Part shown: one piece after another, positions 4,064-19,660 of the stretch
How the letters are laid out: every line of letters begins with the position of its first letter
Position numbering within the stretch: the first letter of the stretch is position 1
Source: a virus
DNA length: 20,435 nt
Reading direction: 5' to 3' (one strand)
Virus record (IMG/VR): IMGVR_UViG_3300040801_002714
Location: 1 to 20,435 of that record
Made by a program: the position numbers and the translations under genes
The notes under the pieces: generated by a model
What the model was told of the DNA's origin: nothing
What the model saw: only the letters and a program-made list of their open reading frames with translations
Databases searched by the model: none

Positions 4064-5023
4064 TTAATTAAGTAGGAAACCTAGTACAACTGGAATAGTT
4101 ATTGTGTCTCGACCGCGTCTAACAGTGACATTGACTGTGGTACCTGGGCGCAAAGATTGAACATAATCGATTAGCTCGTAACTGGACACCATAGGTACTC
4201 CATCCACCGAAATGATAAGATCGTGCTTCTTGAGTCCACCGATCTTTGCAGGAGAATTTTTCATCACTTCTGTGATCAATATGCCTTGTGTTGTTCCTCT
4301 GCTAATAACACCGAAAGATGATCGTTTTATTTCACCTTTTTCAAGCAAAATTCTCTGGATAGTTTGCTGACTTAGTTCACTGTCAGTGGCAAGCGATATA
4401 CCGTTGCTTCCGCCTGATATTGTGATGATTGCTTGAATGATACCAATCACTTCACCGTTCATATTAAAAAGCGGTCCGCCCGAGTTACCAGTGTTCACTG
4501 CGGCATCTGTTTGTATGTAACGAATGAAGTTTTTCGCATAGTCTCTTCTGCCAGCAAAAGACACAATACCTTTTGTCACAGTAAACTCAAATCCAAATGG
4601 GTGCCCAACTGAGAACACATCCTCGCCTACTTGTGTTTCTCCCTGGTGCCACTTTACTGGTGTACCCGATACTCGAGACTTGTCTTCGTCCATTATGTCC
4701 AGCACCACAATATCAGCAGCAGGATCGTATCCCACAATCTTTGCTTTTAATCTCTTGTTTTGATTATATGCACGATAGTAGACATCAGTCGTGCCTTTGA
4801 TAACATGATAACTGGTAACAATAGTATCTTCGTCAATGAAGAAACCTGTGCCTTGTTTAACCACAGCTTCTTCGAAAATACTGTCTATTACAGAAGTGTC
4901 GGGAGCGGAGATGGCAGAAATTACCACAACGCTGGGAAGAACCTCACGTATGGTATCGGGGAAGTTTTCTGCTTGGGAAGTAGCAGAAATCAACAGTAAT
5001 ATACATAACAAAAACTGTTTCAA
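4064..5023 (-). CDS. secreted HtrA/Deg-like serine protease with PDZ domain
   Basis: The 319-residue protein carries a clear signal peptide (residues 1-18, hydrophobic core LLCILLLIS, likely cleavage after SQA), so it should act in the periplasm. The trypsin-like domain has the catalytic His73 (SYHVIKG), Asp104 (PAADIVVLD) and Ser181 (GNSGGPL), with the DegP-style oxyanion-loop region VGHPFG. One PDZ domain spans about 245-316 (SPAKIGGLKKHDLIISVDG). The layout is that of DegS/DegQ-type quality-control proteases; host DegP has two PDZ domains. Translation must start at TTG (5021-5023), since an in-frame stop lies three codons upstream and no ATG precedes the signal peptide. A late-type box is 34 bases upstream. 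It may help late envelope steps or particle processing, but the sequence does not say which. Confidence 0.9.
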   Translation of the reverse strand: MKQFLLCILLLISATSQAENFPDTIREVLPSVVVISAISAPDTSVIDSIFEEAVVKQGTGFFIDEDTIVTSYHVIKGTTDVYYRAYNQNKRLKAKIVGYDPAADIVVLDIMDEDKSRVSGTPVKWHQGETQVGEDVFSVGHPFGFEFTVTKGIVSFAGRRDYAKNFIRYIQTDAAVNTGNSGGPLFNMNGEVIGIIQAIITISGGSNGISLATDSELSQQTIQRILLEKGEIKRSSFGVISRGTTQGILITEVMKNSPAKIGGLKKHDLIISVDGVPMVSSYELIDYVQSLRPGTTVNVTVRRGRDTITIPVVLGFLLN

Positions 5024-8136: not shown

Positions 8137-9096
8137 TTACGTACCAAGCTTGTTGCCCCAGATGTAACAGTGTAGGCGACCACTCACATTGTAACCTCTT
8201 GCGATTGCCTCTTCTGCCACAGCTTGGGTGTCTTCGCTCTCTTGTGATTCTTTGGTAGCTCCAACAGGCATGATCCACACCGGCCAATGTTCGAGTCCTG
8301 CTTCTCTGAATTCCTTTACAGCTTTTTCAACTTCGTACCAGGTACGATCGTCGTTGTCGACCACAAACTTCAACTGACCATGCGGACAAACTTCAGCATA
8401 CTGTGCTACTACTTCGGGCTTGATTGCGTCGTCCCACTTTTCGCCACTGGATCGCAGCTTCGGACTCACACTCCAGAACCAAAGAGGCGCGCCTCGTTCG
8501 TCGTCGATGTATCCACCGTACATTGAACTCAGCATGAACTCTCTTAGGAAGTCTTGCATGTGATCTTCGATTGGCCGTGTGCCGTTTGTTTCCACAGTGA
8601 CCATGAGCGGCTGGTTTTCGATCTCTTTGAATCGCTCCATAATCAGTCGCATACCTTTTTGACTCATCATGGGCTCACCGCCAGTAAATGCCATGTGTGT
8701 TTCTTGTCCGCTGCCCGGGTGCTTGAACATTCCCTGCGGGTTATAAGGACTCTTCAGTGTGTCGATCAGTGTGTCGACAATCTCGCTGACAGGCTTGCGA
8801 TGTGCAAGGTGCCGGTATTCCTGGCTCCAAGTATACGAACTATCGCACCCGAACTCCCACACAGGCAAGTCTTCCATTGCGATAATGTTCGGATCAATTG
8901 TATTCTCTTCTGCAAACTTCTTGTACGGCAATTTCCAGGTGCTCGGGTCGTCTAAGTTCTCTTGTCCGAAGCCTTTGCATTCTAGGTTGCAACCCCAGAA
9001 GCGAAGCCACAGTGTAGGCACGCCGGTAAATTCTCCCTCGCCTTGAATCGAACGGAAAATCTCGCTGTAACGATATTCTTTTTCTTTATCAGTCAT
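8137..9096 (-). CDS. queE: 7-carboxy-7-deazaguanine synthase (QueE), radical SAM
   Basis: QueE converts 6-carboxytetrahydropterin to 7-carboxy-7-deazaguanine, the precursor of preQ0, for queuosine or for 7-deazaguanine DNA modification. The start YSEIFRSIQGEGEFTGVPTLW followed by LRFWGCNLEC (to residue 40) is characteristic of QueE. FTGGEP (about 144-149) is the radical-SAM glycine motif, and VETNGT and VSPKL follow. Usual QueE proteins have C-x3-C-x2-C for the 4Fe-4S cluster. Here Cys36 and Cys40 are present, but the matching third cysteine appears to be Cys84 in FGCDSSY, after an insertion of about 40 residues. The protein is correspondingly long (319 aa against about 210-250). A DpdA-like enzyme at 18122-19660 would use the pathway's product on phage DNA. 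Confidence 0.9.
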   Translation of the reverse strand: MTDKEKEYRYSEIFRSIQGEGEFTGVPTLWLRFWGCNLECKGFGQENLDDPSTWKLPYKKFAEENTIDPNIIAMEDLPVWEFGCDSSYTWSQEYRHLAHRKPVSEIVDTLIDTLKSPYNPQGMFKHPGSGQETHMAFTGGEPMMSQKGMRLIMERFKEIENQPLMVTVETNGTRPIEDHMQDFLREFMLSSMYGGYIDDERGAPLWFWSVSPKLRSSGEKWDDAIKPEVVAQYAEVCPHGQLKFVVDNDDRTWYEVEKAVKEFREAGLEHWPVWIMPVGATKESQESEDTQAVAEEAIARGYNVSGRLHCYIWGNKLGT

Positions 9097-13749: not shown

Positions 13750-13862
13750 TTCTCAAGCTCCTCGGCTTTTGCAAATAGTTCACAGTCGTGCCTTCTTTTA
13801 GCACGATGCTTCATGTTTATGACGTCGAGTCTAGTCTTCGTATCTTTCGATTCTTGCGCCAT
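13641..13862 (-). CDS. possible 73-aa protein overlapping the zinc-ribbon gene
   Basis: The frame starts at ATG 13860-13862 with GAGGATAA just upstream and runs 109 bases into the zinc-ribbon gene in a different frame. The first 45 residues are convincing (basic and helical, NMKHRAKRRHDCELFAKAEE). The last 28 (TQTSGTTISGKGATNVTTSP) are low-complexity and could be either a real tail or a read-through shadow of the overlapping gene. Bases 13750-13830 belong to no other gene, which argues for a real product. The family is not recognised. Confidence 0.5.
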   Translation of the reverse strand: MAQESKDTKTRLDVINMKHRAKRRHDCELFAKAEELEKCLNQDAQNAETQTSGTTISGKGATNVTTSPKASQS

Positions 13863-14187
13863 TTTCGTTATCCTCGCTCACCGACACAACATAGTCACGG
13901 AACGGATATTCTTCTTCTAGATAATCGAGCAGCTCTTCTGCTAGCATCTCGCAACTCTTATCATCTAGCTCAAGTGTTCCTTTTTCGTACAGACCTTCAA
14001 GCTCGCGTTTAAGCATTATAAACTCAATATCTCTGTCGTTGTGTGTAACAGTCACTTCAACACGAAAGTGAAAAATGTGTCTATGCGGGTGTGCAAGAAA
14101 GCCCACTGCAGGCGGAGCATCCGGATACTGATGAATACCTTCTTTCTGAAATGTTACCCAAATCCACTTCTTATCGTTATCACTCAT
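13831..14187 (-). CDS. T-fold protein candidate, QueD/6-pyruvoyl-tetrahydropterin-synthase-like
   Basis: The 118-residue protein has the order of elements of QueD/PTPS enzymes: a histidine cluster running into a strand (HPHRHIFHFRVEVTV, residues 33-47, resembling LHGHSYRVEVEV), an F/L-rich helix (IEFIMLKRELEGLY, in the place of the DFGDLK-type region), SCEMLAEELLDYL (like the SAENLARWIF helix) and a final SEDNENGARIE (like WETPTSGAEY). His33, 35, 37 and 40 could bind zinc, but the catalytic cysteine of QueD just before the HGH is not seen, so activity may differ. QueD makes the substrate of QueE, which this phage encodes. The assignment is a motif-level guess; a family of related phage proteins is known to me only as unnamed. 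Confidence 0.5.
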   Translation of the reverse strand: MSDNDKKWIWVTFQKEGIHQYPDAPPAVGFLAHPHRHIFHFRVEVTVTHNDRDIEFIMLKRELEGLYEKGTLELDDKSCEMLAEELLDYLEEEYPFRDYVVSVSEDNENGARIERYED

Positions 14188-14392
14188 ATTCTTCCCTTAA
14201 AGCTTTTAGCAGTTTGTCACTCATTTCGAATCTAATCTTTTCTCTATTTATGTGGTCATTAACCGACACCACGTTTGTTTTCACAGACGCTACGCCCTTG
14301 ATCATTCTAATTGCATCGAGAACAGCTTCTACGTCGTCGTCTCGATAATCTTTATCGAGCGTTACTACAATGCCACTTACACGATCAGTCAT
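14180..14392 (-). CDS. conserved phage hypothetical protein, ferredoxin-like fold candidate, 70 aa
   Basis: From memory this family, with the block IVVTLDKDYRDDDVEAVLDA and IRMIKGVASV (about residues 8-37), is common and uncharacterised in T4-like marine phages. The strand-helix-strand order and VASV after a glycine recall a heavy-metal-associated or ACT-like ferredoxin fold, though the CXXC of metal chaperones is lacking. The ATG at 14390-14392 overlaps the end of the glycosyltransferase by 8 bases, and its stop overlaps the T-fold gene by 8. A candidate late box lies within it. Function is unknown. Confidence 0.72.
   Translation of the reverse strand: MTDRVSGIVVTLDKDYRDDDVEAVLDAIRMIKGVASVKTNVVSVNDHINREKIRFEMSDKLLKALREEYE
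14245..14252 (-). promoter_or_regulatory. possible late promoter box (CATAAATA), weak
   Basis: The minus strand reads CATAAATA, fitting NATAAATA. It lies inside a coding sequence and 57 bases before the T-fold gene's ATG, farther than the 30-34 bases at the other three boxes. It may be chance; it is listed so that it can be tested. Confidence 0.25.
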
Positions 14393-15386
14393 AATTCACC
14401 TTTGTGTTATTTAGGAACTGTGTTGCACAGTTATCCCAGGACCATATTTCGCTATACTTATGAACTAATCCTCTGGGCAACAGTATAGCACGATTCACGG
14501 CGTCCTGTAAATCTTCACTTAGGACTCCAGTGAGGTTTGGTTCTACAACATCAATCGGTCCTTGCACCGGATATGCTGCAACAGGCGTACCACAACTCAT
14601 TGCTTCAATCATTACTAGTCCGAATGTGTCTGTCTTGCTAGGAAACACAAAACACTTGGCGCCAGCAAATGCGTCAACTAGCTCTTGTCCTTTGAGCGCG
14701 CCACGAAACTGCAAGTCGTTTCTGTGTCCGTGTTCTTTGCGATACTGTTCTAGCATAGGACCATCGCCTACTACCACTTTGTAGCCGTCTAGTGCAAAGA
14801 AGTCTTCTAGGTTCTTTTCGATACTGACTCTTCCTACATACAGTAAATAGTTGCCTGGTTGTTCTTTGAATTGAAATTGCTCTCGGTCAACACCCCGTGT
14901 CCATGTTCTCACATTCACAAGTCGATTTGTTACCAACTTGAACATCATCTCATCTGTGGGAACTAATATGGCACTGCTTTTTCGATGAACCCATCTCATC
15001 CAATGCCATGTAAGCCATTCGGGCACATGGAACATTGCTTTTAGATACTGTGGCCAGTCTGTGTGGTATCCTGTAGTAAACTTTTTGTTTAGACTAATAC
15101 AGGCCTTCTTTGCGCGATAACCTACAGAACCCTCTGGGGTTGCGATGTGTACTATATTTGCCCACGCAATGTCGCCGTAGTATTTTTCTTTTGGTACCCA
15201 GGTGAACTTTACTTCGGGGTACGGAGTAGGAATAGAGAAACGGCCATGTTCGGGTGTTATCATCCGAACTTCGTGACCTTGTTTTTCTAGTGTCTTTGTG
15301 AGATTAGTTAGCGTAGTGACTACGCCGTTGACCTGTGGTTCCCAGGCATCACTTATTATTAGAATTTTTAGACCAGTGGATGACAC
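14385..15386 (-). CDS. agt: agt-type glycosyltransferase (GT4; predicted diacylglycerol glycosyltransferase)
   Basis: This 333-residue GT-B enzyme carries the N-terminal PQVNGVVTT (residues 17-25) typical of Agt, SQD2 and MgtA relatives. It also has the phosphate-binding strand YVGRVSIEKNLEDF (183-196), the substrate segment VVGDGPMLEQYRKEH, and TDTFGLVMIEAMSCGTPVAA (252-271), where Asp253 replaces the first Glu of E-x7-E, as in Agt/SQD2. The end WSWDNCATQFL (315-325) resembles the Agt C-terminus. Bacterial Agt makes glycosyl-diacylglycerols from diacylglycerol and UDP-sugars. The gene overlaps plcP by 38 bases, the gene pair known from phosphate-starvation lipid remodelling. The start is GTG (15384-15386) with GGGGAG 6 bases upstream. 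A GDP-mannose-using relative is the main alternative. The symbol here is not the T4 alpha-glucosyltransferase. Confidence 0.8.
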   Translation of the reverse strand: MSSTGLKILIISDAWEPQVNGVVTTLTNLTKTLEKQGHEVRMITPEHGRFSIPTPYPEVKFTWVPKEKYYGDIAWANIVHIATPEGSVGYRAKKACISLNKKFTTGYHTDWPQYLKAMFHVPEWLTWHWMRWVHRKSSAILVPTDEMMFKLVTNRLVNVRTWTRGVDREQFQFKEQPGNYLLYVGRVSIEKNLEDFFALDGYKVVVGDGPMLEQYRKEHGHRNDLQFRGALKGQELVDAFAGAKCFVFPSKTDTFGLVMIEAMSCGTPVAAYPVQGPIDVVEPNLTGVLSEDLQDAVNRAILLPRGLVHKYSEIWSWDNCATQFLNNTKVNYD

Positions 15387-16110
15387 GAAACTCCCCTTTG
15401 TGTGTCTCTACAACTGCTGTGCAATTCTCAACCCAGTCACCTGTGTTGATGTATTCCACATCGTCGTATACTGTCATTTGTGGATGATGAATATGTCCAC
15501 AGATTACCCCATCGTAATCGTTCTTGCGAGCATAGTCTGCTAATTGTTCTTCGAACTTGTTGATAAAGTTCACTGCTCGCTTTGTGCGATCTTTTAGGTA
15601 TTTACTTAGGCTCCAGTATTCCATGCCGAACATTTTTCTTATTGCGTTCAGCTTAGTATTGGCCCAGATTAATATCTCGTATGCTTTGTCGCCTAGGTGC
15701 ATGATCCACTTTAGGTCGGCTCGCATGAGGTTATCGAACATATCGCCGTGCACTACAAGATATCGTTTTCCTGACAGTGAAACATAATCTTGTCTATTCG
15801 ACACACTGATATTTCCAAAGCTAATCTCATCGCGAATGTACTGTCGCAGTGCTTCGTCGTGATTGCCGACTACATATTCGACTTGGGTGCCTTTGTTTGA
15901 TTTGCGAAGAACACAGCGTATGATTTCGGTATGGCGTTCCGGCCAATACACTCCCTTCTGCATACGCCAGCCATCAATTATGTCACCTACGAGATAAAGA
16001 TTGTCGCAGGTATTGTTTTTTAAAAAATCCAGTAGCTGCTCGTCTCGGCATCCTCTAGTACCCAAGTGAGTATCGCTAATAAAGATGCTACGATAGTCTG
16101 TCTTTTTCAT
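15349..16110 (-). CDS. plcP: PlcP-type phospholipase C (calcineurin-like metallophosphoesterase)
   Basis: The 253-residue protein has all metal-ligand motifs of the calcineurin-like fold: SDTH (residues 12-15), GDIIDGW (42-48), GNHD (82-85), HGD (121-123) and CGHIHH (204-209). The signature stretches SIFISDTHLGTRGC and NTGDWVENCTAVVE, and the WSLSKYLK helix, match the PlcP group often labelled UDP-2,3-diacylglucosamine hydrolase-like. In marine bacteria PlcP cleaves head groups from phospholipids, releasing phosphate and leaving diacylglycerol for Agt to glycosylate. The overlapping downstream glycosyltransferase strongly favours PlcP over the LpxH of lipid A synthesis. It has no signal peptide, as expected for an enzyme on the inner membrane's cytoplasmic face. 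Its ribosome binding site is weak. Confidence 0.85.
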   Translation of the reverse strand: MKKTDYRSIFISDTHLGTRGCRDEQLLDFLKNNTCDNLYLVGDIIDGWRMQKGVYWPERHTEIIRCVLRKSNKGTQVEYVVGNHDEALRQYIRDEISFGNISVSNRQDYVSLSGKRYLVVHGDMFDNLMRADLKWIMHLGDKAYEILIWANTKLNAIRKMFGMEYWSLSKYLKDRTKRAVNFINKFEEQLADYARKNDYDGVICGHIHHPQMTVYDDVEYINTGDWVENCTAVVETHKGEFRVIHWSKNSNNK

Positions 16111-16130: not shown

Positions 16131-16508
16131 TTAAGGCCGGCGGCGTCGGACCGGAGGAGGAGTTGGTGCACCTGTTGGTTTTCTGTTGGCATAAGATCTT
16201 GCAGTTCTTTGCTTTTCTCTAATGTCGTTTGGATCCGGTTCTCGAAGTGCACGAATCACCACATCCTCTTCACGGCAATAATCAGGCCGGCCAATTTTGA
16301 TTTCGTATCCACCTGCCATCAGTGGAGCCGTTGGATGCTCATATACACACATTCTTCTCCCAACATATTCGAGCCAGTGCTTTCTATGCAGCCCAAGATC
16401 TTCGTCGTATATGCGAACTGGATACCAAGCAAACCATCGGTGCCAGCGGCATACACGACTTACTTTTATATCGAATTTCTCTTGTGCTGTAGGACTCACC
16501 CAATCCAT
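16131..16508 (-). CDS. WFAW-motif family protein A, 125 aa
   Basis: First (leftmost) of four tandem paralogues. It contains WHRWFAWYPVRIYDED (residues 22-37), then HWLEYVGRRMCVYE (44-57), EEDVVIRALREPDPND, and a basic, proline-rich tail (PTPPPVRRRRP). The start at ATG 16506-16508 is chosen because it aligns exactly with the start of paralogue B (MRWVSPSSKQKF against MDWVSPTAQEKF). A GTG at 16559 would run 50 bases into B. The gene follows B by a single base. Conserved aromatic residues suggest a small beta-barrel-like fold. I think such motifs recur in marine phage unknowns. Function is not known. Confidence 0.75.
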   Translation of the reverse strand: MDWVSPTAQEKFDIKVSRVCRWHRWFAWYPVRIYDEDLGLHRKHWLEYVGRRMCVYEHPTAPLMAGGYEIKIGRPDYCREEDVVIRALREPDPNDIREKQRTARSYANRKPTGAPTPPPVRRRRP

Positions 16509-16509
16509 C

Positions 16510-16893
16510 TCATTGCGGTGGTTCGTAAATGCCTTCTGCTTCGGCAATCTCAGGATCACCCTTTGTGTCGTTTGGCCTTTCCCATTCGCCCTTTATTTGT
16601 GCTTTTCGCGCATCGTTGATTTCCGGTTCTCTTAGAGCTCTTACTACAACGTCTTCCTCGAAGCAGTATTCGACGTGACCAAGATATTGACGGTTAGTGT
16701 TCAATGAATATTCACCATAGCGGTGATACACAGTTTTTCGCCGGCCCACATTTTCGAGCCAGCACTTTTTGAAAAATTTGATTTCCGGATCATAGATGCG
16801 GACTGGATACCAAGCAAACCATCGGTGCCACCGAGCTTGTTTTTGTGCTTTAATCCAAAACTTTTGCTTGCTGCTAGGACTCACCCACCTCAT
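16510..16893 (-). CDS. WFAW-motif family protein B, 127 aa
   Basis: This is the closest paralogue of protein A. Both start WVSP, share WHRWFAWYPVRIYD (residues 22-35), a CWLENVGRR/HWLEYVGRR block and EEDVV-x-RALREP, and differ in their tails; here the tail is acidic (EIAEAEGIYEPPQ). The ATG at 16891-16893 overlaps the upstream stop as ATGA, and a GGGGGAG site stands just before it. High similarity of adjacent copies points to tandem duplication and divergence within the phage genome. Function is unknown. Confidence 0.78.
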   Translation of the reverse strand: MRWVSPSSKQKFWIKAQKQARWHRWFAWYPVRIYDPEIKFFKKCWLENVGRRKTVYHRYGEYSLNTNRQYLGHVEYCFEEDVVVRALREPEINDARKAQIKGEWERPNDTKGDPEIAEAEGIYEPPQ

Positions 16894-17096
16894 CTCCCCC
16901 TAAGCTCCGTGACTAGTGCATCGTGCAAGAAGTAGTACTGCCACACCCAGTCTCCGTAAAACTGCGCATCGTGTGAATCCGCAACTCGACGTCTGGCTAC
17001 ACCGCGCAGCCAAATCATTTTGTGATATTCAACGTGCGGGTCCCAAACCCAAACAGGGCGCCATGCAAACCAAGGCTTCCACTGTGACACGACCAT
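16890..17096 (-). CDS. WFAW-motif family protein C, short form, 68 aa
   Basis: The short paralogue has QWKPWFAWRPVWVWDPH (residues 5-21), then IWLRGVARRRVAD (28-40), and ends after the aromatic WVWQYYFLHDALVTELRGR. It therefore keeps only the motif core and lacks the extended tail of A and B. The stop overlaps B's start as ATGA. The ATG at 17094-17096 has no clear ribosome binding site, so it may depend on coupling with the upstream gene. Function is unknown. Confidence 0.72.
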   Translation of the reverse strand: MVVSQWKPWFAWRPVWVWDPHVEYHKMIWLRGVARRRVADSHDAQFYGDWVWQYYFLHDALVTELRGR

Positions 17097-17101
17097 ACTA
17101 G

Positions 17102-17371
17102 TTATGCGTTGCCGACCAGGCGATCTGCTACAACATCACCAGTGTCACGATATTCGGTGAACCGATGATTATAGAACAATCCGTCTTTGTAAAGACGCTG
17201 CTGAACAGTGCGACGAACGACGCCTACACAAAAGCGCCAGCTTTTGGTACCGTCAGACTGAACGAGTTGCACAGGATGCCAGGCCCACCACTTTGACCAG
17301 AGACTGGTCTTTTCTTCGTAGATGCCATATCCGTCTTCGTTCATTTCCATTTTTGCATCTGTTCCGTCCAT
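17102..17371 (-). CDS. WFAW-motif family protein D, 89 aa
   Basis: This is the most diverged paralogue. It has an acidic N-terminal extension (KMEMNEDGYGIYEEK), then LWSKWWAWHPVQLVQ (residues 24-38), SWRFCVGVVRRTVQQR (46-61) and the ending TGDVVADRLVGNA, which corresponds to EEDVVIRAL in A and B. The motif order tryptophan core, W-x(3-4)-V-x-RR, V-V-x-R/L is common to all four. The ATG at 17369-17371 follows GAGG and lies three bases after the upstream stop. Function is unknown. Confidence 0.72.
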   Translation of the reverse strand: MDGTDAKMEMNEDGYGIYEEKTSLWSKWWAWHPVQLVQSDGTKSWRFCVGVVRRTVQQRLYKDGLFYNHRFTEYRDTGDVVADRLVGNA

Positions 17372-17374
17372 TGC

Positions 17375-17938
17375 TTAATCCTCTTTAGGCTTGTTACGGC
17401 GAATTTTACGTAAAGCTTTAATATCACTGTCACGCATAATAACTTCGTCGTTGCCGTAGTCAACCCAGGGAGTAAAGCGATTTCTGTCCAGCAAATCGTG
17501 CTGTGGAATACACCACACACCTGTGTTAGTGCCTTGGAAATCAGTATCGTCTACTTTTAGTACTAGATTCTTACTAAAGGTTTCGACGTAAGGCACAATG
17601 CAACTTACCATCGGAATAAAGTGGGGGTGCGCTGCATACTTGCCAGGCAATGTGTCTACCACAAACTGCTGAGCGCTTGCAGGATAGTCCAGTGTTACCC
17701 AGAAGCCTTCATCCAACAGAGCAGGAACAATCTCTGCCCATAGCTTGTTATTCTGAAAACTTCTATTAGCACCTAGATAAATGTGTGGACAGTTGTGTTC
17801 TCTTGCGAGATCAATCATTTGTTGAATACCACGAACACCTACAACAAAAAGTGTCTTCTTGCTAAATGCAGCACTGGTTTCGACTTCTGGTCCTACAAAG
17901 TACACAGCATCATCGTGGTCTTGTCTCTCGATAGTCAT
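17375..17938 (-). CDS. conserved phage hypothetical protein, 187 aa, downstream of dpdA
   Basis: From memory this belongs to an uncharacterised family in marine T4-like phages. Blocks are AVYFVGPEVE (about residues 11-20), KTLFVVGVRGIQQMIDLARE (28-47), HIYLGANRSFQNNKLW (52-67), GFWVTLDYPASAQQFVVD (78-95) and a C-terminal DDTDFQGTNTGVWCIPQHDL (129-148). The alternating strands and helices look Rossmann-like, and the two cysteines fall in strand-end positions. It is linked to dpdA through the 66-residue gene by ATGA and 14-base overlaps, so a shared role in DNA modification is plausible but unproved. AAAGGA precedes the ATG. Confidence 0.8.
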   Translation of the reverse strand: MTIERQDHDDAVYFVGPEVETSAAFSKKTLFVVGVRGIQQMIDLAREHNCPHIYLGANRSFQNNKLWAEIVPALLDEGFWVTLDYPASAQQFVVDTLPGKYAAHPHFIPMVSCIVPYVETFSKNLVLKVDDTDFQGTNTGVWCIPQHDLLDRNRFTPWVDYGNDEVIMRDSDIKALRKIRRNKPKED

Positions 17939-18135
17939 GATAGTTTTCCTTTAATAGTTTTTGCACACTGGCTAGCAGAACGGCCATTCATGTAACTGAG
18001 ACAGGCGTAGTCAAAAATCACAGCACCTAGCCCGCGGCCGTTAATCTGATGCTTGTCTGCATCAGCAATAAACTCCGACCCTAGCTCTGCTTTAACTTTG
18101 TCAAGATACTCGACTAACTTCTCAGGATTGGCCAT
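17935..18135 (-). CDS. small helical protein between dpdA and the 187-aa gene, 66 aa
   Basis: The family is not recognised. The protein is small: a first amphipathic helix (PEKLVEYLDKVKAELGSEF), a loop with HQINGRGLGA and a second helix (IFDYACLSYMNGRSASQCAK). The ATG at 18133-18135 is inside the end of dpdA (14-base overlap) with CGGAGA upstream, and its stop overlaps the next start as ATGA. This tight coupling with dpdA suggests equal production and perhaps a complex. Function is unknown. Confidence 0.75.
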   Translation of the reverse strand: MANPEKLVEYLDKVKAELGSEFIADADKHQINGRGLGAVIFDYACLSYMNGRSASQCAKTIKGKLS

Positions 18136-19660
18136 TGCGAATCTCCGTTTCTAGTTCGTCTAGCTTCTCTTCTTCGGCTTCTGTGAAGCCTTCGTCTTCG
18201 GCGTGATCACTTTGCATCTCAAACATTTTAGCAAACAGCGGATTGTTCTCGCCGCCTTGTGTTCTTGAGCCGCTTACGTCTTGCAGGAAGTTTCTATTGT
18301 CCTCTAGCATCTGCATTGGTGCATCGCTAGTAAACAGATCCTCCACAAACTTATCAAAGAACAAGATGTTACGCGGTACCCATTTAGAGAATTCTCCGCT
18401 CTTGTCACTCTTCTTAAGCTTCTTCCATTCTGTAATGTCAGGACGGAATCTTGCAGTTTCGATAGCAGTCAAGTGGTTAGCAATTTGCACAGCACGGATA
18501 TGCTGGTAAACATTGTGCACCATTATTAGTGCATAACTCATGCTGTCCCAAGATGTCTTGCGCTCTTCGCCTTTAGTATTAAGGTTCTCTCCGGGTCCAT
18601 GGCGACAAATGTCACCTACAGTCATACGTCTACCGATCTCACTTTCGAAAGGATAAGGAATATCACTGCCTTTGAGGTCTTTATTATCTGGCGCTGGTTC
18701 CATGATATAACTGTAACGGCTGTTAGTGTGAATAGGAGCCGTGTAAGTCATCCCGTTCGCTGTTGCAATGAACGGACTAGCGCAGTCGAAGCTAATTTGT
18801 AAATTAGGATTAACGTGTTTGCGAAGCTGTCGCTGAACAGACGTAAGCATAGATGCCCAGTCCAGTCTCGAGGTACCGAGAAAGTGCATCCAGTCCTTGC
18901 CTTCTAGCCGGCCTTCGTCTCGCAGTATAATGAGTCGCTTGAGCGCAACATACATATCGCGCATATTCTTGCCACCCATTGCCCAGCCTTCGAACTCGTA
19001 ATCGCGCACAGACTCATACCAGTGCTGTGCTTCTTCCCAGTTAGATCCTTGTAGTACATTCAAGAATTTAGTCGCCCCTAAGCGATTGTCTAAGAAGAAT
19101 TCGTTGTTGAACTGTGTTGCATCCAAACAGTCTTGGAATGTTTTCAGTCCAGTGACTTTTGCTCTCAACGGGTTTGCAGCCCAGCTAGGCACATCAAGCA
19201 CCATGCTCCAGTCTGCTGTGTATTCTAGCCAATTGAGAATAGCCATTCTTGTGTTATCGGCGTTGCCTTTATAATTAGCATCGCCTTTCTTTTCGTAGAA
19301 GTTATCCCAGTCAAACTTGAGAACACCCTTACCAATCTGGAAACCACCGGAGTCGCCTAAGATCATAGTCTGTTCACGATCTCTCTGGTGAATCATTCTC
19401 TCAACGGGCTTTTCAGGATTAAGGCATTTTTCTAGATTAAGTTCAGCATGGCCCGCTGAATACAGAGCAGTGTCGTAATAGAAACTGCCTTTGTCTTTGT
19501 CTAGAAAGTTTAGACTATCGAAACCGTTTTCGAATGCGTCCGGTAATCTATCCTCGCCAATTTTTCCGTTCCAGCACGTATCGAGCATGGATGTATAGAA
19601 TCCGGAAATAGCCGGAAGGAATAGGGCATAGTCCTTCTTTTGCCCGTTAAGATCTTTCAT
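18122..19660 (-). CDS. dpdA: DpdA-like DNA 7-deazaguanine transglycosylase
   Basis: DpdA is the DNA-acting relative of tRNA-guanine transglycosylase: it swaps guanine in DNA for a 7-deazaguanine such as preQ0. The TGT-fold landmarks are present in order: GDSGGFQ (residues 102-108, base-binding Asp103), VLDVP (154-158), NVLQG (201-205), FEGWAMGG (223-230, the gly-gly substrate loop) and SFDCASP (290-296), whose Asp292 matches the catalytic nucleophile of FDCVLP in bacterial TGT. At 512 residues it is much longer than TGT (about 370-380), as is usual for phage DpdA; the C-terminal third (about 400-512) is helical and charged. The phage's own queE at 8137-9096 would feed it. It is four bases downstream of the clamp gene. 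Specificity for preQ0 against other bases cannot be read. Confidence 0.88.
   Translation of the reverse strand: MKDLNGQKKDYALFLPAISGFYTSMLDTCWNGKIGEDRLPDAFENGFDSLNFLDKDKGSFYYDTALYSAGHAELNLEKCLNPEKPVERMIHQRDREQTMILGDSGGFQIGKGVLKFDWDNFYEKKGDANYKGNADNTRMAILNWLEYTADWSMVLDVPSWAANPLRAKVTGLKTFQDCLDATQFNNEFFLDNRLGATKFLNVLQGSNWEEAQHWYESVRDYEFEGWAMGGKNMRDMYVALKRLIILRDEGRLEGKDWMHFLGTSRLDWASMLTSVQRQLRKHVNPNLQISFDCASPFIATANGMTYTAPIHTNSRYSYIMEPAPDNKDLKGSDIPYPFESEIGRRMTVGDICRHGPGENLNTKGEERKTSWDSMSYALIMVHNVYQHIRAVQIANHLTAIETARFRPDITEWKKLKKSDKSGEFSKWVPRNILFFDKFVEDLFTSDAPMQMLEDNRNFLQDVSGSRTQGGENNPLFAKMFEMQSDHAEDEGFTEAEEEKLDELETEIRNGQS

Follow-up and report, generated by a model that had tools for sequence, protein, structure and literature searches.

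Four adjacent genes in the window (the whole stretch of DNA analysed, the first 20,435 bases of a virus record 97,170 bases long) are diverged members of one small-protein family, called here the W family. Its members, Trp-rich and mostly basic single-domain proteins with a core of about 55-75 aa, are widespread in phages and were found in ~55 other viral or prophage loci. The W proteins may be replication-associated accessory binders, a reading favoured tentatively and given somewhat less than an even chance. It is favoured because placement beside replication and recombination genes recurs in unrelated phages.

Organization of the array

The genes had been described in the initial annotation as four adjacent small genes of 125, 127, 68 and 89 aa with a common Trp motif, and both genes and motifs are as described there (Table 1). 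They lie head to tail in the order D-C-B-A, copy D being the first gene, with a Shine-Dalgarno-like AGAGGA upstream of it. The D/C junction is a gap of 5 bases, the C/B junction an ATGA overlap placing the TGA of C on the ATG of B, and the B/A junction a gap of 1 base. The copies are adjacent, tandem and translationally coupled, with tight junctions. For copy A the 125-aa ATG start is preferable to the listed 142-aa GTG start, since it aligns with the start of copy B.

Table 1. Genes of the W array and flanking features in the window
Feature	Position	Strand	Remarks
W-family copy A (P0001)	16131..16508	-	125 aa; Pro/Arg-rich C-terminal extension/tail; tree sister of B, 100/100
W-family copy B (P0002)	16510..16893	-	127 aa; C-terminal extension; AF2 model made
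W-family copy C (P0003)	16890..17096	-	68 aa, the minimal length; PHROG 18133 at E 7e-4
W-family copy D (P0004)	17102..17371	-	89 aa; most diverged; AF2 model made
Conserved lineage gene, syntenic anchor	17375..17938	-	187 aa; directly upstream of array; 64% identical in L048
DpdA-like gene, syntenic anchor	18122..19660	-	512 aa; 77% identical in L049; PA5oct EST35_0316 42%
Metallophosphoesterase and GT4 glycosyltransferase pair	14385..16110	-	downstream of array; absent from L048

Relationships among the four copies

The motif of A-D reads W-x2-W-[FW]-A-W-x-P-V followed by W-(L/W)-E-x-V-x-R. The alignment further displays W-x3-V with R-R, after which come a Y and D/L positions; W22, W25, A27, W28, P30, V31, W45, V49 and R52 are invariant in all four. 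Within the six-frame ORFs of the window the chance expectation of the motif is ~1e-6. A protein search of the phage's own 97-kb record based on copy B returned only these four copies (E 1e-90 to 2e-4), and the family HMM scores them at 3e-19 to 8e-15, values that are not independent since the HMM was built with A-D included. The shared V-x-RR and D-V-V end noted earlier hold in general, with the exceptions that copy D reads V-G-V-V-R-R and copy C ends HDALV. The core is kept while loops and tails vary. Copy D has a pI of 6.1 and is thus not basic. A transmembrane reading was rejected for all four, the maximum 19-residue Kyte-Doolittle mean being too low (0.4 or less).

Copies A and B, earlier taken for near-duplicates, are sisters in the tree (support 100/100), but the recency implied by that term was overstated: they are 47% identical overall and 53% across 100 aa, with pS 0.83 (synonymous sites saturated) and dN 0.53. 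Residues 51-75 and the tail have a high dN, the motif strands a low one. Because synonymous sites are saturated, the pair is old rather than recent, probably under net purifying selection with variable loops; a recent duplication and an assembly artefact were both rejected on the same grounds. Copies C and D form long branches and are unplaced, and an AU test did not reject a grouping of A, B and C (p 0.28).

Distribution of the family

Searching with copy B alone recovered 32 other viral loci and a profile search 45. Records from genome contigs extend the list to Rhizobium, Rhizobiales, Bacteroidetes, Anaerolineae, Actinomycetota and Thermoplasmata; those of the last four come from metagenome bins, whose host assignment may be wrong. 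Named carriers are the Rhizobium phages 16-3, RHph_X2_25, RHph_X2_26 and RHph_I1_23, Arthrobacter phages BarretLemon and MidnightRain, Gordonia phage Neville, Rhodococcus phage Reynauld and Achromobacter phage Motura. The ORFs of 16-3 (E 7e-16), Motura (5e-12) and RHph_X2_25 (2e-17) belong to the window family by profile, but are single copies of ~65-95 aa. The family ORF is unannotated in the records of phage 16-3 (L038 5001-5282, between p077 and p078) and Motura (L153, around 2490-2680). Profile searches of STML-198, T4 and PA5oct gave no member, and scans of viral contigs specific to copies C and D gave no relatives. Few cellular genomes carry the family: 4 of 297 from the Rhizobium seed's order and 1 of 150 from the Anaerolineae seed's phylum, each count including the seed genome. 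This rarity fits a phage-borne gene.

Like the rest of the family, A-D are small (about 55-130 aa) separate ORFs, tightly coupled to their neighbours and carried in a phage or prophage. Family members have a median pI of 9.05 and contain 19% aromatic residues and 8.8% Trp. Matches to PHROGs are solely to those of unknown function (14828, 18133 and 10835): PHROG 14828 matches A-D at 1e-3 to 0.06, and the best E per copy to these PHROGs is 7e-4 to 0.06. Across 51 family members, 13 match PHROG 14828 and 10 match PHROG 18133, BarretLemon gp67 doing so at 3e-17 and 2e-41, respectively. Proteins of these three PHROGs, gp67 included, have the core W-x2-[WV]-F-A-W-x-P in common with the window copies, which differ in matching weakly, in being tandem, and in the C-terminal extension of A and B, otherwise seen in L005 only. 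Sequence searches of Pfam, NCBIfam, PADLOC and the PDB gave no relevant family for the W proteins, and neither the motif string nor the PHROG numbers turned up in literature searches.

Copy number and lineage

Copy number varies: the syntenic relative has 1, most of the clade 0 and three other phages 2-3. This departs from the constant number in all relatives that, together with a known structural function, would have refuted the initial annotation's reading. One copy is present in 49 of the 52 searched records with a match, two in L008 and L145 and three in L140, counts that are approximate since the records include near-identical ones and fragments; the four copies of the window phage are the highest number seen. 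The three copies of L140 (1044-1698), directly upstream of a DNA polymerase gene, form their own clade (99/92), so duplication in place has occurred more than once.

The nearest relative, L048/L049, is collinear with the window. Its order is polymerase, clamp, DpdA, 66 aa, 187 aa, one W gene, 118 aa, PDF, GT, PRT, QueE and exonuclease; the same interval in the window holds four W genes, the metallophosphoesterase/GT4 pair and small genes. The single homologue (IMGVR_UViG_3300048582_000091, L048 7357-7689) occupies the window position after clamp-DpdA-66aa-187aa, has the length class and C-terminal extension of A and B, and is 32-36% identical to B/A. Since the metallophosphoesterase/GT4 pair is missing from this syntenic relative, it is part of the same variable segment as the array; its metallophosphoesterase is LpxH-like by eye. 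In the window lineage, duplication would have produced the co-translated set D-C-B-A, in which A and B have the extension that is also present in the nearest relative's only copy.

Farther away, the 187-aa gene is also found in L133, L092, L050, L053 and L127. L133 (a 385 kb contig) and L092 each have one W copy elsewhere in the block, that of L092 being remote. The family is absent, at E <= 0.01, from 24 of the 25 more distant clade relatives tested, and PA5oct has the block without the W family.

Other genes of the window

The DpdA-like gene has no Pfam or PHROG match and at least 599 relatives among viral contigs. Together with QueE (8137-9096), it hints that DNA carries a 7-deazaguanine modification in this lineage, which is related to PA5oct. 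A 118-aa protein of PHROG 17812, a group of unknown function (13831-14187, minus strand), is QueD/PTPS-like by eye and conserved in every lineage member compared. Two further genes, both on the minus strand, encode a 136-aa protein with a ribosomal protein L7/L12 C-terminal domain (2170-2577; PF00542, E 5e-10) and a DegP/HtrA-like trypsin-PDZ protease with an apparent signal peptide (4064-5023). Ribosomal proteins encoded by viruses, bL12 among them, have already been reported (PMC6375957).

Predicted structure

Copy B was modelled by AlphaFold2 with 51 sequences. Its model comprises a helix (8-20), strands at 23-26, 31-35, 40-44, 48-53 and 82-86, and a second helix (92-104), with a core pLDDT of about 92 and a pTM of 0.49. 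The model of copy D (mean pLDDT 68, pTM 0.42) has a short helix, strands up to residue 76 and a C-terminal helix. The two models agree in the order of their elements. The predicted core starts with a helix at the N-terminal side and continues in antiparallel strands, the conserved Trp/Pro motif holding these elements together.

In PDB fold searches for B and D no match reached E<=0.001, and the Z values from VIA peaked at about 2-3. In BFVD an uncharacterised Caudovirales protein of 63 aa ranks first (E 3e-4), ahead of a Salmonella phage STML-198 protein. The Foldseek PDB list for copy D contains many OB folds (M. leprae SSB, PriB, Mycoplasma SSB) as well as Hfq, non-significant at E 0.18 or worse, and this predicted resemblance to SSB, PriB and Hfq serves as a lead only. 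OB-fold ssDNA-binding proteins are small and beta-rich like the W proteins, and an SSB-type gene adjoins the family in Sak4 operons, but no fold or profile match is significant (VIA Z for the OB fold was about 2, and comparison of the family with neighbouring SSBs by hhalign gave a probability of 0.1%), and membership is not claimed.

Genomic neighbours across phages

In 24 loci the start codon of the W gene overlaps the stop of the upstream ORF. Adjacency to replication and recombination genes recurs in several otherwise unrelated phages. When 49 immediate-neighbour proteins were pooled, 6 matched Sak4 (PHROG 124), from Rhizobiales-type phages, and 3 matched PHROG 6015 single-strand DNA-binding proteins, as raw counts; helicase and thymidylate synthase were also among the pooled neighbours. 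In L012/L015 the W gene has DNA polymerase B upstream and a UvsX-like recombinase downstream. DNA polymerase I adjoins it in L135 and, by eye and with polymerase matches in the pooled scan, in L140, while an ATP-dependent ligase is the neighbour in L145 and a DnaE-like protein, by eye, in L008. In the window, L048 and L133 the gene lies in a clamp/DpdA block. At many loci, e.g. L009, L013, L018, L027, L034 and L044, a recognisable replication neighbour is absent.

Possible functions

If the W proteins are replication-associated, each would be an early-expressed accessory protein acting at the phage replication/recombination machinery, through binding of single-stranded nucleic acid or of a replisome or recombinase partner. 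The conserved Trp core and the basic strand W-L-E-x-V-x-R-R would underlie the binding, and the variable loops and tails would set partner specificity. Against this, the fold resemblance is not significant, many loci have no recognisable replication neighbour, copy D is not basic, and the W gene is dispensable, as its patchy presence (1 of 25 clade records) indicates, unlike core replication factors. Clustering in early regions is itself compatible with any early function, early genes being predicted alike by the replication reading and by an anti-defence one.

In the latter, a serious rival rated slightly lower, the genes would form a host-takeover or anti-defence array. Each paralogue, a small early protein, would bind and inactivate a host or defence protein of its own, and the copies would multiply and diverge as the targets change. 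The arms race proposed in the initial annotation gains from the tandem duplication, divergence and variable copy number. Tandem arrays arose repeatedly (two copies in L008 and L145, three in L140, four here), conserved anchors flank the variable segment that holds the genes, and the genes are patchy in the clade, small, often unannotated and variable in loops and tails around a kept core. It loses ground in that the family is mostly single-copy, that the comparison of A with B is purifying overall, with dN well below saturated dS, and that recognisable neighbours include no known anti-defence genes and are mainly replication and recombination genes. PADLOC, which gave no match, lists defence proteins and is thus uninformative for anti-defence.

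A link to the 7-deazaguanine DNA-modification machinery (DpdA/QueE) of the window lineage, with the W proteins as its accessories, is improbable. The W genes do come two genes after DpdA in the window and L048, and L133 and L092 have a copy in the same block. However, of the loci retrieved together with the family, only L005/L048, L133 and the window have a DpdA homologue in the cluster, 24 of 25 DpdA-bearing relatives have no W family, and it is replication adjacency that recurs. Small virion or structural proteins are marginally less probable still: a few members have other kinds of gene nearby, as Neville gp116 has lysin B, but where the function of a neighbour is known it is mostly an early or replication gene and not part of a head or tail module, and the PHROG structural category holds no match.

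A wider proposal, rather unlikely as a whole, is that the family constitutes a new minimal domain with clustered Trp residues that binds nucleic acid or the replisome. It would occur in phages whose hosts are Pseudomonadota, Actinomycetota and probably others, largely overlooked by standard annotation, and tandem duplication would yield paralogues with different partners as recombination mediators or anti-defence adaptors. Local novelty is modest, consisting of the largest tandem array seen and the C-terminally extended pair A/B. A motif common to phages of distant hosts, often next to Sak4, polymerase or ligase genes and unnamed in Pfam and NCBIfam, points to an overlooked phage protein family, and the four-copy array set against its one-copy syntenic relative offers a natural comparison for the purpose of duplication. 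Binding of ssDNA or a recombinase, if true, would make these proteins a new part for the phage recombination toolkit; blocking of host proteins, if true, would make them a new anti-host scaffold.
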